DNA of 49,411 nucleotides, from positions 1 through 49,411 of IMG/VR virus record IMGVR_UViG_3300032242_002878; one strand, 5' to 3'. The notes beneath the pieces were generated by a model. The model worked only from the letters and a program-made list of their open reading frames with translations. It was not told the origin of the DNA and made no database searches. Position numbers and translations under genes: made by a program. The DNA comes from a virus. Shown here piece by piece: positions 26,945-37,281 of this stretch; position 1 is the stretch's first letter; every line of letters starts with the position of its first letter.

Positions 26945-27322
26945 TTATGGAAGTTCTACTTCTTTCCAAGATGTAGTAGCTTCATTCCAAGTATAAGCTT
27001 TACCATCATCTGGATAAGCAATTGGAGGTTGCCACAACCAATTTGTTTCAGCTGAAATAGTCCAGCTATCGAATGGTCTCGCAGGATAGAACACATCATT
27101 TACTGCATCATATGTGTATCCTATACCAGCATAGTTACCACGAAGAGCTGGCTCGCCATCTGGCTCATTTGTGTTTGGTGCATAGTGGACATTGCCTCTT
27201 GTATTATATGAGGTTTGAATCCACTGACCAGGTGATGAATCAACAAATGTGTCAAAGAAATCTGGCTCTGCCACAATTACGTTTACCACTGTTCCGTTTA
27301 CTACTTTTGCAAAATGTCCCAT
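26945..27322 (-). CDS. Conserved small phage structural protein (125 aa)
   Basis: The 125-residue product starts MGHFAKVVNGTVVNVIVAEPDFF and contains WIQTSYNTRGNVHYAPN, LRGNYAGIGYTYDAVNDVFY and a Trp/Pro-rich C-terminus (NWLWQPPIAYPDDGK). This is a recurrent family among fibre genes of marine T4-like phages and related groups. Its function is not established to my knowledge; size and place suggest an accessory fibre or tail protein. The ATG at 27320-27322 follows an AAGGAGAAAT ribosome binding site 18 bases after the preceding glycine-rich gene. Confidence 0.75.
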   Translation of the reverse strand: MGHFAKVVNGTVVNVIVAEPDFFDTFVDSSPGQWIQTSYNTRGNVHYAPNTNEPDGEPALRGNYAGIGYTYDAVNDVFYPARPFDSWTISAETNWLWQPPIAYPDDGKAYTWNEATTSWKEVELP

Positions 27323-27340
27323 AATTTATTTCTCCTTTTA

Positions 27341-28456
27341 TTAAGCTGTATAAGAGCCAGATGCTGTGAATGTTAGAATAGTATATCCGCCATTAGTGGT
27401 TACAGTTGGCGAACCTGTTTTAATTCCAGTATAGCTTCCTGTTGGTATAGAAATAATAACAACACCAGAACCACCAGCTGAACCAGCACCAAAATTATTA
27501 CCGCCACCACCGCCACCACCGCCTGAATTGACAGTGCCTGCTGTTCCGCCTAGATTATTATTACCACCAGCACCGCCTCCACCAGAACCACCAGAACCAC
27601 CAGTGCCAGTAGTTCCTCCGCCACCACCACCAGCATAATAAACAGATACGCCTGTAATTGAAGAAGCTACACCAACGCCTCCAGTTTGATTTACAGCGGC
27701 GCCACCAGCACCGCCTCCACCACCACCAGCTCCAGATGTATAACTTGCACCAGCATTTCCTTGACCGCTTGTTCCAGAACCACCTGTTCCTGAAGGATAT
27801 CCACCACCACCACCAGAACCACCTGCATTACCATTAAATGTAGGGGATGATCCAGCTGTTCCACCGCCACCACCACCAATAGCTGTTGTTAACCCAGTTA
27901 TTGAAGAATTTGCTCCATTACCACCTTGACCAGAAGTAGCACCACTAGCGCCTCCAGAACCAACCTGTATTGAATATACTGCACCAGGAGTAAATGATGT
28001 TGTTCCAGTAAGTAAACCACCAGCGCCTCCACCACCAGAAAGATTGTATGCACCTCCACCGCCACCTGCAACTATTAAATATGTTACTGTATATGGTCCT
28101 ACTGGATTATTAACAAAGTTTCCATACCCTAACCAACCTTGAGTAGAATCAACATAAACAATAGAAGCACCTTCTCTTGAAGTAGCTAATACAGCATTAG
28201 CTGATGAACCAGATATTTTACCACCATTAGGATTGATAATGCAATTGTTACCAGCAAAGGTTCCAGCATAGTCAGTAATAGAAATTTGTTGTCCAATAGT
28301 AGGAGAAGCTGGTAATGTTACATAAACAGGTCCAGAAGATGTATTAACAGGATAAGCATAGTTTGCTGTGGCAGTAAAACTAGATGTTTGAACAGCTTGC
28401 CAAACAAGCCCACCACCCTGATTACCAAATAAACTAAACTGTTGAATCTGAGTCAT
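27341..28456 (-). CDS. Glycine-rich adhesin tip protein (371 aa)
   Basis: After a beta-rich N-terminal 125 residues with FGNQGGGLVWQAV, the protein becomes a glycine-rich domain: GGGGGAYNLSGGGGAGG, GGGGGGTAGS, GGGGGYPSGTGG and more, separated by conserved strands such as SIQVGSGG and SITGLTTAIGG. Such Gly blocks form stacked polyglycine helices in phage receptor-binding tips. The last segment, LTFTASGSYTA, is repeated as a relic elsewhere (34008-34034). It is translated just after the 963-aa LamG gene (13-base gap). The receptor is unknown. Confidence 0.75.
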   Translation of the reverse strand: MTQIQQFSLFGNQGGGLVWQAVQTSSFTATANYAYPVNTSSGPVYVTLPASPTIGQQISITDYAGTFAGNNCIINPNGGKISGSSANAVLATSREGASIVYVDSTQGWLGYGNFVNNPVGPYTVTYLIVAGGGGGAYNLSGGGGAGGLLTGTTSFTPGAVYSIQVGSGGASGATSGQGGNGANSSITGLTTAIGGGGGGTAGSSPTFNGNAGGSGGGGGYPSGTGGSGTSGQGNAGASYTSGAGGGGGGAGGAAVNQTGGVGVASSITGVSVYYAGGGGGGTTGTGGSGGSGGGGAGGNNNLGGTAGTVNSGGGGGGGGNNFGAGSAGGSGVVIISIPTGSYTGIKTGSPTVTTNGGYTILTFTASGSYTA

Positions 28457-28469
28457 TGATTACCTATAA

Positions 28470-31703: not shown

Positions 31704-33986
31704 TTATAATCCTAGTAGAAATACTGAAACAAATGTGTCTGATAAGTTAACTGAAGTAGAATTGTTGATAGTCACACTAGTAAATAGTGGTCCGACAGTA
31801 GTAGATGCTGTTGCCGCACCTGTATTGGTAATTGTTAATGGACTATTTGAACCGTCTACAATTGTTGGACCATTACAAGTTAACAATACAGTTTGGTTAG
31901 CAGAAATTGCAGAAATAGCAGTACCAGATGCAGCTTGAACAGCTGTTAATGGACCAATTGGTGTAAAATTGCCAGTATATACCGCAGCACCATTAACTAT
32001 ACGAAAATTTGAAATATAACCTGCAAAAGTAGTACCATAAGCTTCACCAATATAACCAATATTAAATGGTTGTGTAATACTACTCATACTTGCTACTGCA
32101 CCAGTAGTTTTAGAAACACCATTAATGTATAATGCAGTTTGATTGGTGCTAGTTCCTGATCTAACTATTGCAATATGATTCCATGCGTTTATTGTGATGT
32201 TTGAAATGGGAGTTGATAAAGCAGTTCCAGATATACTTCCTGTATCTAAAACTAGATTTGAACCATTTATATAAAAAATAAACTTTGGTATAGTACCACT
32301 ACCGTTATCTGTACCAAAAAAATTAATTAATGAAGCTACAGATGTTGGATAAAACCAACCTTCAACAGTAAAATTGTTTGCTCCAAAATTAATATTAGGA
32401 ACACTTAGATAATTACTGCTGCCGCTAAATTGTACACTGTAAGTAGCTGGTGTTATTGAACTGTAGGTAGTTGCAGTTGTTGCAACCACATCAATTAATG
32501 CTCCAGATGGTGGAGCAACTGCAAATGTTATTGTTGTTCCTGAAGTAACAGTAACGTCTGTACCGTTTCTAAATCTCAAACCATTGACAAACACATCAAT
32601 AGCGCCAGCTGTATATCCACCAGATATTGTGAATACAGTTGTCGATCCATCGCCTGTGAATGATTGTCTTAAAGCTGTAGTTGCTGCAGATGTTGATGAC
32701 CAGTAAACATTGCTGCCATTAGAAGTAAGAACTTGACCAGTTGTACCAACACCACCACTAGCAGTTAATGCACCAGTAATAGCAAGGTTGGATACTGATA
32801 TTGATTGACCATTAGTAAAGCCACCGCCACCAGAAGAAGTGGCCCAATAAGGTGATCCAGTAGCACCATTAGATGTTAATACCTGACCAGCAGTACCAAC
32901 ACCACCATTAGCAGATACTGGTGTTGCAATAGTTAACTGAGTTGTATTGGAAATAAAGCTAGTACCAACAGTGTGAGCAGCAGCATTAATTGTACCAGTA
33001 GAATATACGTTAACAACTGTTGTGTTACCAGTTACAGTGGTATTACCACCAAGATATGTTGTACCATTAACTGATAATCTATCAACTGGAGCGTTGTTAC
33101 CGATACCAATGTTACCACCAAGAGGATTCAAAAGAATCGAATAATAAACAGGCGCACCAGCAGAAGAGTAGCCTGACTGAATCCATTGAGCAGAACTTGT
33201 TTGTTGACCAAAAGCAAGATAGTTACCAGAAGCACCACCAAGAGTGGCATAAGCATTACCAACGAATGCACCAGCTGCTACGTTAGCCTGACCATTTATA
33301 TTGTAAAATGTTGCTGTGTTAGAACTACCAATACTGAAAGCATTGACAGCCATCGATGTAGTATTTAAAGAAACAGCAGCTGCAGTTGTATTTGATAAAG
33401 TAAGTGATGTTGCTGTTAATACTAAGTTGCCACTAGCACTTACAAGAACATCAGCTGTGTTATTACCATATCCATAAACAGTAGTATTGCCTGAATAAAA
33501 ATGAGTAGAGTTAGAATAAGTGTTAACAGTAGAGTTACCAATAGTTAATACGTTACCAACACTCACGTTACCAGAAAATGTAATAGTATTAGAGAATGTT
33601 TGAGTATTGGTCCAAGCATACTGTGCTGCAACGTTAGTTCCAGCTGCAGCAGCTGTCCAATAAACGTTAGAACCAGCACCAGCAGAAGTTAATACTTGCC
33701 CAGCAGTACCAACACCACCATTTGCTGAAATAGTGTTTGTGCTTACAATAGCACCAGAAAATGTAATGGTGTTAGAAAATGTTTGAGTATTGGTCCAAGT
33801 GTATTGAGCAGCAGTATTAGTTGCACCACCTAATGGTGAACCACTAACATAAACAGAAGATGAATTGATAACAACGTTTACTGATGAATTACCAACAACT
33901 AATGCATTAGTAATTGTAGAAGTATTTGCTGCCGTGTTGACAGTCAATACCTGACCAAGTAAACCTATGTTTTGATTCTGTGCCAT
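31704..33986 (-). CDS. Fibre-shaft plus LamG-like adhesin (760 aa)
   Basis: The N-terminal part (to about residue 440) contains fibre repeats with GVGTAGQVLTS(N/A)G endings, NSTVN and NTTVTGN segments, and stretches with QYTWTNTQTFSNTITF. Next comes an approximately 65-residue module, FTGDGSTTVFTISGGYTAGA to AVAPPSGALIDVV, that is almost copied in two other genes here. The C-terminal third (about 520-745) is a LamG-like domain: FGANNFTVEGWFYP, NAWNHIAIVRSGTS, YISNFRIVNGAAVYTGNFTP. The gene has an AATAAATA motif just upstream. It is likely a structural fibre with terminal binding domain. Confidence 0.8.
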   Translation of the reverse strand: MAQNQNIGLLGQVLTVNTAANTSTITNALVVGNSSVNVVINSSSVYVSGSPLGGATNTAAQYTWTNTQTFSNTITFSGAIVSTNTISANGGVGTAGQVLTSAGAGSNVYWTAAAAGTNVAAQYAWTNTQTFSNTITFSGNVSVGNVLTIGNSTVNTYSNSTHFYSGNTTVYGYGNNTADVLVSASGNLVLTATSLTLSNTTAAAVSLNTTSMAVNAFSIGSSNTATFYNINGQANVAAGAFVGNAYATLGGASGNYLAFGQQTSSAQWIQSGYSSAGAPVYYSILLNPLGGNIGIGNNAPVDRLSVNGTTYLGGNTTVTGNTTVVNVYSTGTINAAAHTVGTSFISNTTQLTIATPVSANGGVGTAGQVLTSNGATGSPYWATSSGGGGFTNGQSISVSNLAITGALTASGGVGTTGQVLTSNGSNVYWSSTSAATTALRQSFTGDGSTTVFTISGGYTAGAIDVFVNGLRFRNGTDVTVTSGTTITFAVAPPSGALIDVVATTATTYSSITPATYSVQFSGSSNYLSVPNINFGANNFTVEGWFYPTSVASLINFFGTDNGSGTIPKFIFYINGSNLVLDTGSISGTALSTPISNITINAWNHIAIVRSGTSTNQTALYINGVSKTTGAVASMSSITQPFNIGYIGEAYGTTFAGYISNFRIVNGAAVYTGNFTPIGPLTAVQAASGTAISAISANQTVLLTCNGPTIVDGSNSPLTITNTGAATASTTVGPLFTSVTINNSTSVNLSDTFVSVFLLGL

Positions 33987-34001
33987 TCTCTACCTTTTAT
34001 A

Positions 34002-34009
34002 TATTTATT
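34002..34009 (-). promoter_or_regulatory. Late promoter motif AATAAATA upstream of the 760-aa fibre gene
   Basis: AATAAATA on the minus strand lies 16 bases before the ATG at 33984-33986. This is closer than usual, but it still leaves a short leader with AAAGGTAGAG. An identical motif is 34 bases further upstream (34036-34043), flanking a gene relic. Either could be the active promoter. Confidence 0.45.
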
Positions 34010-34034
34010 AAGCCGTATATGAACCAGATGCTGT
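34008..34034 (-). pseudogene. 3'-end relic of a glycine-rich adhesin gene
   Basis: In the minus frame these 27 bases read TASGSYTA and then a TAA stop, the same C-terminal peptide and stop as the glycine-rich adhesin at 27341-28456. The two DNA copies share most bases (GCTGTATA and CCAGATGCTGT blocks). The relic has no upstream reading frame; it sits between two copies of AATAAATATA, directly after the subtilase gene. It is best explained as what remains of a lost glycine-rich adhesin gene. Confidence 0.65.
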
Positions 34035-34035
34035 A

Positions 34036-34043
34036 TATTTATT
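34036..34043 (-). promoter_or_regulatory. Second AATAAATA motif before the relic
   Basis: AATAAATA on the minus strand overlaps the subtilase stop. It would transcribe the relic and then the 760-aa fibre gene, 50 bases before its ATG. The surrounding CTGTATATTTATTAA on the plus strand is shared with the promoter at 37268-37275. Confidence 0.5.
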
Positions 34044-35802
34044 AACGTAATCTCATACCAGTACGAGGATATAAAATACCAGAACTTGGCCTATATAGAT
34101 AATTTTGTTTAGGATACATTTCTCCACTAGTGGGTTTTTCCTGTGGAAAATAAAGATAATTATTTACTGAACCTTGTAAACTAAACGTATCAGAAGTCCA
34201 TGACGGACTTGTTCCACCTGTATCAGATAATTGAGAAGTTTTCGCATAACTTTTTATATATGCCATCGCCTGCGCAGGAGTCATATGTGGATAAATTTCT
34301 AATAGACAAGCAAGTACTCCGCATACCTGTGGCGCTGCCATACTAGTTCCAATATCTCTACCTAAATAATAACTGCTATTTCTACTATCCGTTACACTGG
34401 TTCCCCCAAAATCTGCGTTTACAGTTGCTAAAGAACTTACAATCCAAGTTCCTGGCGCATAAACATCAACTCTTGGACCAGTACTGCTATAATATGCTTT
34501 TCTTTCAGATGCAATAGCATCAACTGCTCCCACACATATAACACCTGGAACTGCTGATGGCGCAGTTCCTTTATGCTGGTTCCATAGATAAAATGAAGTC
34601 GAAGTTCCATATGCTGCCACAAACCAATTGGCATAATCAGATCCTGTTGGAGTATCAATGAAAAAACTTTCATTTCCCGCTGATGCTACGATTATTATAC
34701 CATCAGCGATAGCAGCTGCTATATCTGCTGCATCAGAAGCAACATAATATGGAACTGTAGTATATACTGTTCCAGAAACTGTACGATTATACATTCCAAC
34801 AGCATTCAATTGCGCTGAAGTAAATGGAGTATAGGGACTAGAACCAAACGGACCAGTAGTAGTTCCTCTTCGATTAGCTTGTACTACTGAATATAACGTT
34901 AAACTAGTAGTAGGGAATGTTAACGCACTGCCATAACTACAATTACAGATAGTAGGATTTTGCCTACCTGTTATTGGATTAATTGGTTTATTTTTATGGA
35001 ATGCTCTAACATAATCCCATACACCAATTCCAAGTCCTTGTTCTCCTAATGGGCCAATTTGATAAATATTGGCATCTCTTGCCCATCCACAAGTATTACC
35101 AGCAACTGTACCTGCAGTATGCGCTCCATGGTTAGCATTAGATATTGTAGCATCCATGGCATAAGAATATGATCCCGTTAACAACGTTGCACCGTCAGTA
35201 TTCAACCCACTGGCTATACTCTGTAACTGATACCAATCATATTGTTGATATCTGCTGCCACCTGTGCCGTCGGCATTTACAGCAAATTCTGGATGATTTG
35301 GTACTCCACAAATTCCATCCATTGAGATAAAATCAACATTTTTACCTGTCGGACCAATGGTAATTGTAGCACTTTGATTTTCAGACGTATATGTAGCAGT
35401 AGTGTATCCTGATGTTGTATACGTATTACTAGTACCCCACCCTGATCTTTGAGCTCCTTCGATGCATCTCAATAATCCCCAATTTCTGTAACTAGCATCC
35501 AGTGTTACATTGGCTGGCGTTTTACTAAAGTTTCCAGTTTGTGTATACGAATTCAATGTTCTACTGGCCAGTATTAATTTAACAGGGTCAACTCCAATGA
35601 CACGAGGATCATTTTTTAAAGCATTGGCTTCTTCTAATGTAAGCATATAATGTGTATTTTGACTCAATGGTCTGCGTAGGTAAACTGGAACGGCTCTATC
35701 TGGGATTGCATCAGTTCCACCAGAAGTTTCTAAGTCATTATATAAAGAATTTAAATCTTCCATAGATTTACAAGTAACAACAAATTCTTCTAATTGACTC
35801 AT
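34042..35802 (-). CDS. Subtilisin-family serine protease (peptidase S8) in the fibre cluster
   Basis: The catalytic set is complete: Asp in SMDGICG (D162, followed by NHPEF as in many subtilases), His in ANHGAHTAGTVAG (H225), oxyanion Asn in SAGNESF (N377), and Ser in GTSMAAPQVCG (S487). The first 80 residues resemble an inhibitor I9-like propeptide (FVVTCKSMEDLNSLYNDLE to DPRVIGVDPVK). There is no signal peptide, so the protein is probably made in the cytoplasm and built into the virion or released at lysis. The last 40 residues are a Tyr/Pro-rich tail. It could cut host surface proteins or process neighbouring fibres. The protease call is firm; location and target are inference. Confidence 0.93.
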   Translation of the reverse strand: MSQLEEFVVTCKSMEDLNSLYNDLETSGGTDAIPDRAVPVYLRRPLSQNTHYMLTLEEANALKNDPRVIGVDPVKLILASRTLNSYTQTGNFSKTPANVTLDASYRNWGLLRCIEGAQRSGWGTSNTYTTSGYTTATYTSENQSATITIGPTGKNVDFISMDGICGVPNHPEFAVNADGTGGSRYQQYDWYQLQSIASGLNTDGATLLTGSYSYAMDATISNANHGAHTAGTVAGNTCGWARDANIYQIGPLGEQGLGIGVWDYVRAFHKNKPINPITGRQNPTICNCSYGSALTFPTTSLTLYSVVQANRRGTTTGPFGSSPYTPFTSAQLNAVGMYNRTVSGTVYTTVPYYVASDAADIAAAIADGIIIVASAGNESFFIDTPTGSDYANWFVAAYGTSTSFYLWNQHKGTAPSAVPGVICVGAVDAIASERKAYYSSTGPRVDVYAPGTWIVSSLATVNADFGGTSVTDSRNSSYYLGRDIGTSMAAPQVCGVLACLLEIYPHMTPAQAMAYIKSYAKTSQLSDTGGTSPSWTSDTFSLQGSVNNYLYFPQEKPTSGEMYPKQNYLYRPSSGILYPRTGMRLR

Positions 35803-35803
35803 T

Positions 35804-37243
35804 TTATAGTTCCATCTGTACCACAGTAAGTGTTACTGTAACTGCTTGAGTGCTGGCATTATAGTTAGTAACTGCCATGTATATATTTGCGCTAGGAGTT
35901 CCATCATTATTAAATCCAAATATACCTGGAGTTATTAACTGTGTTAAATATCCCGTTGTTGTTAATATTTCTGTTATGACACCACTTCCTGGAACTGGAT
36001 CTGTGCCAATAGTTCTAGATGCATCAGATGTTCTAGAAGCACTGTCAGTATATAATCTGACCCACGCTTCACATGATGTTTGTATTTTTAATAATGCGTA
36101 AGATTTATAACCTGTTGCAGTAATATTACCAGTAGCAAGATTTGCCAATGATGCAGTTGTTGCTGATACAGTAGATCTTGCTACTAAACCAGTACCACCT
36201 GAAGATCCGCCTGACCCATTACCTATAGCATCAATTAATGCGCCCGATGGTGGTGCAGAAACAAATACGACAGCTGTACCACTAGTTACTGTTACTTCAG
36301 TACCATTACGAAGCATCACACCATTAAGAAATACGGAAATAGCGTTAGCAGTATATCCACCAGTAACTGTGAATGATGTTGTTGTTCCATCACCAGTAAA
36401 TTGTTGTCTGACAGTTGTTGGTGGAGCTGACCAATATGTATTGCTTGTACCACTAGATGTTAGATAATAACCAGCTGTGCCAGCAGAACCATTAGCAGAT
36501 ACGACACCAGTAATAGCAAGATTCGAAACTGAAATTGATTGACCATTGGTAAATCCGCCACTAGAAGCAGTTGACCAATATGCAGTAGTTCCGTTAGATG
36601 TTAATACCTGACCAGCAGTACCATAAGAACCATTGGCAGAAATGCCAGCTGTTGTTCCAATTACAATGTTAGCGTTATATGTATGAACGCCAGTAATAGT
36701 ATAAGAAGATGAAGTATTAACATATGAAGCAGCTGCAACACCCCCAAGGTAAGATGCATTATTAGCTGTAAGAGTAGCTACGTTAGTTGACAATCCAGCT
36801 GTTGTTTGATAATTAGCTAAGTTACCTGATAGTTGAGTAGTAGAAATAACATTAGCTGCTGGTAATAAACCGATATAATTTGCGCTGTTCGCAGCAAGAG
36901 TTGCTACGTTAGCTGATAATCCAGCAGTTGTTTGATAGTTATTAAGATTTGAAGATAACTGTGCTGTGTTAACATAATTAACAAGATTAGCAGTTAATTG
37001 ATTATTCGATACTACGTTAGCTGCGGAAACAGTTCCTACATAGCTAGTATTATTTGCTGTTAGTGTTGCTACGTTAGCAGATAATCCAGCTGTAGTTTGA
37101 TAACTAGCAGCTGCAACTCCACCAAGATTCAATGCATTATTAGCATCGCCCCAAGTAACGCCAGTAGAATTAGCAACAAGAACTTGTCCTGCTGTTCCAC
37201 CAGTATTAGCTATTTGTTGCGAGAGTATCTTTTGTACAGCCAT
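35804..37243 (-). CDS. Repeat-rich tail fibre protein (479 aa)
   Basis: The N-terminal half consists of the YQTTAGLSANVATLTANN / YVGTVSAANVVSNNQL repeats that also make up much of the 1458-aa fibre, in about three to four copies. It continues with GVHTYNANIVIGTTAG, GTAGQVLTSNGTTAYWS and the FTGDGTTTSFTVTGGYTANA to FVSAPPSGALID module found in two other genes of the window. The C-terminal 120 residues (from VARSTVSATTASLANLATGN) look like a small beta-rich domain with YKSYALLKIQTSCEAWVRLYT, related to conserved phage tail fibre end domains. It starts 2 bases before the subtilase in the transcript, and has an AATAAATA motif upstream. Confidence 0.8.
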   Translation of the reverse strand: MAVQKILSQQIANTGGTAGQVLVANSTGVTWGDANNALNLGGVAAASYQTTAGLSANVATLTANNTSYVGTVSAANVVSNNQLTANLVNYVNTAQLSSNLNNYQTTAGLSANVATLAANSANYIGLLPAANVISTTQLSGNLANYQTTAGLSTNVATLTANNASYLGGVAAASYVNTSSSYTITGVHTYNANIVIGTTAGISANGSYGTAGQVLTSNGTTAYWSTASSGGFTNGQSISVSNLAITGVVSANGSAGTAGYYLTSSGTSNTYWSAPPTTVRQQFTGDGTTTSFTVTGGYTANAISVFLNGVMLRNGTEVTVTSGTAVVFVSAPPSGALIDAIGNGSGGSSGGTGLVARSTVSATTASLANLATGNITATGYKSYALLKIQTSCEAWVRLYTDSASRTSDASRTIGTDPVPGSGVITEILTTTGYLTQLITPGIFGFNNDGTPSANIYMAVTNYNASTQAVTVTLTVVQMEL

Positions 37244-37267
37244 TTAAAAATCCATTTAGTTACTGTA

Positions 37268-37275
37268 TATTTATT
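37268..37275 (-). promoter_or_regulatory. Late promoter motif AATAAATA upstream of 479-aa fibre gene
   Basis: AATAAATA on the minus strand lies 25 bases before the ATG at 37241-37243 in the short gap after the Calx-beta gene. This promoter could drive both the 479-aa fibre and the subtilase, which follows at a distance of one base. Confidence 0.65.
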
Positions 37276-37281
37276 AATTGT

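Follow-up and report, generated by a model that had tools for sequence, protein, structure and literature searches.

The question raised by this locus is how the end of a gene can be present without the gene itself. The window, meaning here the whole stretch of 49,411 nucleotides that was analysed, is a 49.4-kb virus contig with T4-like head, tail and fibre genes, its main genes being on the minus strand, where the parts of this locus are also read. From 34034 down to 34008 it encodes TASGSYTA followed by a stop codon, with no gene in front. These 27 bases had been described by the original prediction as a gene end without a preceding gene, and on re-reading of the sequence both their position and their letters proved correct. 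The order along the minus strand is the last codon of a subtilase (CGT), its stop (TAA), TAAATATA, (A)CAGCATCTGGTTCATATACGGCT-TAA, and then TAAATATATAAAAGGTAGAG-ATG, with which a 760-aa fibre begins. The frame of the tail reads N-K-Y-T-A-S-G-S-Y-T-A-stop. Since no start codon follows the preceding in-frame stop, and since the subtilase closes with two stops in its own frame (TAA TAA), the orphan tail is not translated in any obvious way.

Glycine-rich fibre proteins of this phage group end, as a rule, in T-A/S-S-G-S/T-Y/F-T-A-stop. The same phage has an intact gene of this kind (27341..28456; Gly_rich_2, E 1.6e-15), identified by Pfam and by alignment of its tail, which ends in TASGSYTA and serves here as a comparison copy, not as the source. 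The block that the relic and this gene have in common is 31 bases long (34004-34034 versus 27337-27367, 28/31 identical) and takes in four bases past the stop codon; the match has an E value of 5e-7 and was reproduced in 0 of 100 shuffles. With a base-weight model built from 101 intact glycine-rich tails, and reversed sequence as the null, the relic scores 35.4 bits, the intact tails 32.7 on average and the reversed sequence 16.1 at most. Among the ~380 loci fetched, it is the only complete orphan tail. Across 145 intact tails, codon positions one and two show little variation, and because third positions vary freely and the DNA after the stop is unconserved, the tail is kept as protein and not as a DNA site; a family-wide conserved recombination site was rejected on these grounds. 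Also, several contigs (L114, L121, L130, L163 and others) carry two to four different glycine-rich genes each, all with the same TASG[ST]YTA-type C-terminus, and this repetition suggests a role at the protein level, e.g., in folding or attachment. A 125-aa gene (26945-27322; MGHFAKV..., PHROG 7759, function unassigned) lies behind glycine-rich fibre genes in many aquatic phages, with 303 matching stretches in viral contigs.

Whole phage records were searched with 101 bases spanning the junction, and the orthologous place was found in IMGVR_UViG_3300043409_001462 (G009; 173,384 bp, E 7e-10) and in IMGVR_UViG_3300009182_000243 (G011; E 1e-9). The gene that precedes the homologous fibre in G009 encodes 1041 aa, starts with MAVQKILSQQIANTGGTAGQVLVANSTGVTWGDANN and ends with IIKFTASGSYTA-stop, and its product consists of a stalk beginning MAVQKILSQQ, LamG-like domains, a Gly_rich_2 domain (Pfam, residues 801-1006, E 2.7e-15) and the terminal TASGSYTA. 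Over its final 27 bases the gene has a single mismatch to the relic, as does that of G011, in which gene end and fibre start are the same, so that 26 of 27 bases are identical to intact gene ends in both. The fibre following the glycine-rich module in G009 has an N-terminus 61% identical over 138 residues to that of the 760-aa fibre of the window (31704..33986, MAQNQNIGLLGQVLTVNTAANTSTITNALVVGNSS..., with a LamG-like domain), which is the resident flank on this side. At the orthologous place, the complete glycine-rich end is therefore the C-terminal part of the preceding fibre and not a separate gene. This bears out the reading of the segment as a relic, since a relative (G009) holds the complete module with its matching end. 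What seems to have been lost is not a whole adhesin gene, as had been proposed, and is instead the C-terminal glycine-rich module of the fibre before it. The relative that had been foreseen, with a complete glycine-rich gene ending in TASGSYTA between subtilase and fibre, was found in part: the module and its end are there, but not between those two genes. No subtilase was detected in G009, an empty search answer that counts as weak evidence. The lost module itself being gone, Gly_rich_2 was identified on its relatives, namely the gene at 27341-28456 of the window and the 1041-aa fibre.

The window matches G009 from 34041, where TAAATATA starts, on into the 760-aa fibre, and once more above 36222. 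Here lies the resident N-terminal stalk (36222..37243, MAVQKILSQQIANTGGTAGQVL...) of the 479-aa fibre of the window, which is 94% identical to the 1041-aa fibre over residues 1-53, the two C-termini being unrelated; at the stalk start the DNA match is 87.6% over 37106-37275. In front of the stalk gene, its leader and late promoter (37244..37281) form a second border, given that promoter and leader are conserved between the window and G009 from just past the stop codon on and the upstream genes differ, with a 458-aa gene in the window and a 360-aa glycine-rich one in G009. Elsewhere in the window, the beginning of its own glycine-rich gene (28421-28469, comprising leader and initial codons, MTQIQQ) has 82% identity to that of the post-module fibre of G009, which suggests another exchanged gene start.

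Between these resident flanks, the window matches a different phage, IMGVR_UViG_3300032330_001259 (G001; L003 is very similar), with 77.9% identity at the DNA level over 34034-36184, or ~2.15 kb. The matching stretch covers the end of the 479-aa fibre (its C-terminal 127 residues), the complete subtilase and the sequence through the end of TAAATATA; the remainder of the G001 fibre is different and has a collagen-like stalk. The C-terminal module (35804..36184, ~127 aa, ...VTLTVVQMEL-stop) is 87-89% identical to that of G001, and the 586-aa subtilase (34042..35802; Peptidase_S8, PF00082, E 1.8e-24) is 77-79% identical, its domain scoring 87 bits against a Pfam cut-off of 21.8 over residues 209-522. 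After the subtilase, G001 carries a promoter-like sequence similar in form (TAAATATAGATAA). Of the 45 distinct subtilase loci (among L003-L082), 42 have a homologous C-terminal module immediately before the subtilase, typically with one base between the genes, and the pair is also present in the isolate Synechococcus phage S-CREM1, where it is annotated as baseplate wedge subunit and tail pin, and as peptidase. Because the pairing is kept in these loci and in S-CREM1, module and protease belong together. In the subtilase loci the module is ~130 aa long and ends with ...ITVTLTLLQLE-stop. The module had no Pfam match and a PDB profile sequence search was likewise empty; the subtilase was searched for in bacterial and archaeal genome contigs and was not found there.

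Very probably, the 27 bases are the stump of the glycine-rich C-terminal module of a fibre, swapped for a cassette of tip module plus subtilase. From the sequence comparisons, the window is a G009-type backbone with a G001-type insert, joined at 36184-36222 and at 34034-34044. The lost module would have belonged to the fibre gene whose stalk persists at 36222-37243, and would have been replaced by a two-part cassette from another T4-like phage, the C-terminal module being its first part and the subtilase its second. The left crossover would lie in a Gly/Ser linker (GNGSGGSSGGTG, 36184..36222), where G009 homology ends at 36222 and G001 homology begins at 36184, 38 bases apart. The right crossover would lie at 34034-34044, in TAAATATA, the late promoter following the subtilase in the donor type, which resembles the TTAAATAT or TTAAATTC (L-K-Y/F) codons before TASGSYTA, and what remained of the old module, its final eight codons and stop, would stand untranslated before the next fibre gene. 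The swap would have taken the glycine-rich tip out and brought the other tip and the protease in, with the glycine-rich state first, because an orphan tail can sensibly be read only as a remnant. A simple deletion, one of the two routes originally proposed, does not describe this outcome, since the module was replaced and the subtilase is the newcomer. Two homologous N-terminal stalks with different C-terminal parts (479 aa in the window, 1041 aa in G009) and an incoming part whose closest relative sits on another stalk in another phage (G001) are what module shuffling looks like. From what is known of the families, the lost glycine-rich module was probably a receptor-binding tip with a role in host recognition, and the subtilase may act proteolytically on its own tip.

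The reconstruction is made from cousins, G009 and G001 being ~75-78% identical, and the searches turned up no contig identical to the window in all but the swap. The right-hand promoter (34000-34009) and the opening codons of the 760-aa fibre do not agree with G009, and this calls for at least one more exchange or insertion on that side. The exact right crossover is ambiguous by several bases (34034-34044), as the AT-rich sequence aligns both ways. Glycine-rich tails often have L-K-Y/F before TASG, written TTAAATAT or TTAAATTC, and the TAAATATA at 34034..34041, on which the two homology borders meet, doubles as a late promoter or as the K-Y codons of an LKYTASGSYTA tail. In ten contigs, intact LKYTASG.YTA tails carry promoter-like sequence in frame (AAATATAC, AAATATACNGC), and one of these (L391) is 94% identical to the window in a 36-base stretch that starts with TAAATATA and ends with the stop of the tail. 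It is plausible, from these sequences, that the short shared sequence at TAAATATA guided the crossover. An assembly chimera is unlikely, since the overlaps at both joints amount to ~8 bases, far below assembly words, and the parent types are only 75-78% identical.

The tail is flanked on both sides by AATAAATATA (34034-34043 and 34000-34009), and the original prediction had taken these late-promoter-like repeats as recombination joints and as the two ends of a deletion. The sequence occurs four times in the window versus 1.07 expected, and 6 of 100 shuffles reach four, so the repeats alone are unremarkable and within reach of shuffled sequence. It fits the late-promoter consensus NATAAATA described for cyanophages (PMC2984593). 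The promoters here are of the late type AATAAATA only, the single sigma-70-like match in the region being at chance level. The right-hand copy, 34000..34009, before the 760-aa fibre, has no counterpart in G009 and G011, and it occurs in variant form before similar fibre genes behind other upstream genes, a similar leader standing before the MAQN fibre genes of L410 and L095. The left TAAATATA is the recombination joint and the right copy an ordinary late promoter before a fibre gene. The late-promoter joint holds in that the G001 match ends, and the G009 match begins, within the late-promoter-like TAAATATA; the two repeats as deletion ends do not hold, as a deletion between them would have taken the tail away.

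Comparable borders were found elsewhere in the cluster. At the junction before MAYNQQ fibres, three contigs (L118, L108, L109) share ACAGCTTAAGGGTAARTTATGGCATACAATCAACAATT behind three different upstream genes, with the bases from ACAGCTTAA into the fibre gene common to all of them: L118 (3640-3800) has an intact gene ending SGTYTA-stop, and L109 (3690-3920) an unrelated short gene ending DEPTA-stop. L108 (700-860) holds a shorter second scar, an orphan TATACAGCTTAA behind a different glycine-rich gene ending ENY-stop. In addition, the MAQN fibres in L410 and L095 have their late-promoter leaders behind unrelated genes. These alignments indicate that gene ends with late promoters are recurrent exchange borders in this cluster, and the general idea that late promoters serve as exchange joints finds support in the MAYNQQ, MAVQKILSQQ and MAQN leader junctions. 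When 2.9 million viral contigs were scanned strictly for TASGSYTA-stop-TAATAAATA, nothing besides the window was returned. A looser scan, in which 80 of 118 matching stretches were examined, yielded no full orphan, only intact glycine-rich genes with such an end (L306, L312, L320, L343) and many unrelated genes, and a scan for promoter-like sequence running directly into the tail gave the ten intact LKYTASG.YTA genes and no orphan.

Other explanations for the orphan tail have to be weighed against the swap. Simple deletion of a separate glycine-rich gene between the subtilase and the 760-aa fibre is one of the routes that the original prediction put forward. The place can hold such genes, as G001 has a 325-aa glycine-rich gene and another fibre gene between its subtilase and the next fibre, but that gene is of another type, ending FPSTNTGNL and lacking TASGSYTA. 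Moreover, in G009, where both tail and following fibre match, the module is inside the preceding fibre gene and no subtilase was detected, and the G009 homology resumes exactly after the subtilase, which argues against the deletion of a gene; we regard this explanation as unlikely. The tail could also be a short copy of the end of the phage's own adhesin (27341-27367), made by ectopic recombination or template switching, with which the 90% identity over 31 bases, the first post-stop bases included, would agree. However, the orthologous tails of G009 and G011 are closer, with one mismatch versus three, so the resemblance to the own adhesin that the original prediction had noted is not the closest one. 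The three differences from the own copy are all synonymous (chance ~0.03), which makes it probable that they accumulated when the source still coded for protein. The start of the downstream fibre is, in addition, homologous to G009, and an origin from the own copy is highly improbable.

It could further be argued that the segment has a function, whether in regulation, as a short peptide or as a recombination joint preserved at the DNA level, since all eight codons are intact between two late-promoter-like sequences and since L118, L108 and L109 show the same gene end behind different upstream genes. Against this, there is no start codon, no stable hairpin was found around the segment (z +2.0, with 199 of 200 shuffles folding at least as well), no terminator was found at it, and no other full orphan copy is present in the phage collection searched. 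Readings as regulatory RNA, terminator or peptide were rejected, and a function of the segment is the least credible of these explanations, slightly below a copy of the own adhesin.

The swap is a known kind of event. In T4-type phages, the C-terminal recognition part of the fibre and the small gene behind it are exchanged, and glycine-rich adhesins are involved. Tetart et al. 1998 and Trojet et al. 2011 are said to have described such exchange of distal tail-fibre adhesins (gp37/gp38) in T-even phages. The present case is similar in that a C-terminal part is swapped together with the following gene; it differs in that the glycine-rich part is a C-terminal module of the fibre, a subtilase takes the place of the gp38 adhesin as partner, and a coding stump is left at the joint. 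G009 does not have its glycine-rich part as a small adhesin gene of its own behind the distal fibre, as in the gp38 type; the part is fused to the stalk and LamG domains. Mobile regulatory cassettes, with early promoters and a stem-loop, have reportedly been found in T4-type phages (Arbiol et al. 2010). There, as here, gene modules are shuffled at promoter-bearing intergenic sequences, but the sequence at our locus is late-promoter-like, with neither a stem-loop nor an early sigma-70 promoter. In the fibritin of T4-like phages, C-terminal modules have been swapped, mostly anciently (PMC3797505), and in both cases the C-terminal domains of a fibre protein are replaced and the N-terminus stays; the protein is another one, however, and the present swap still carries its scar. 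Modules of tail fibre and chaperone are shared among Alteromonas phages (PMC10579305); the likeness lies in a fibre part and its following gene being shared as one module between distant phages, and the difference in the second gene, here a predicted subtilisin-like protease.

The event is ordinary phage mosaicism, unusually sharply resolved. Mosaicism of fibres is usually inferred from phylogeny; at this locus, a stump without function pins the joint down almost to the base and points to the direction of the swap. The case also brings to attention the conserved pairing of a fibre C-terminal module with a subtilase in aquatic T4-like phages. We tentatively suggest, as a possibility that we ourselves consider doubtful, that in these phages the ~130-aa tip and the subtilase may form a mobile cassette whose protease would mature or trim its own tip, and which would enter fibre genes by crossover at the late-promoter TAAATATA boxes that follow gene ends and take the place of glycine-rich tips.
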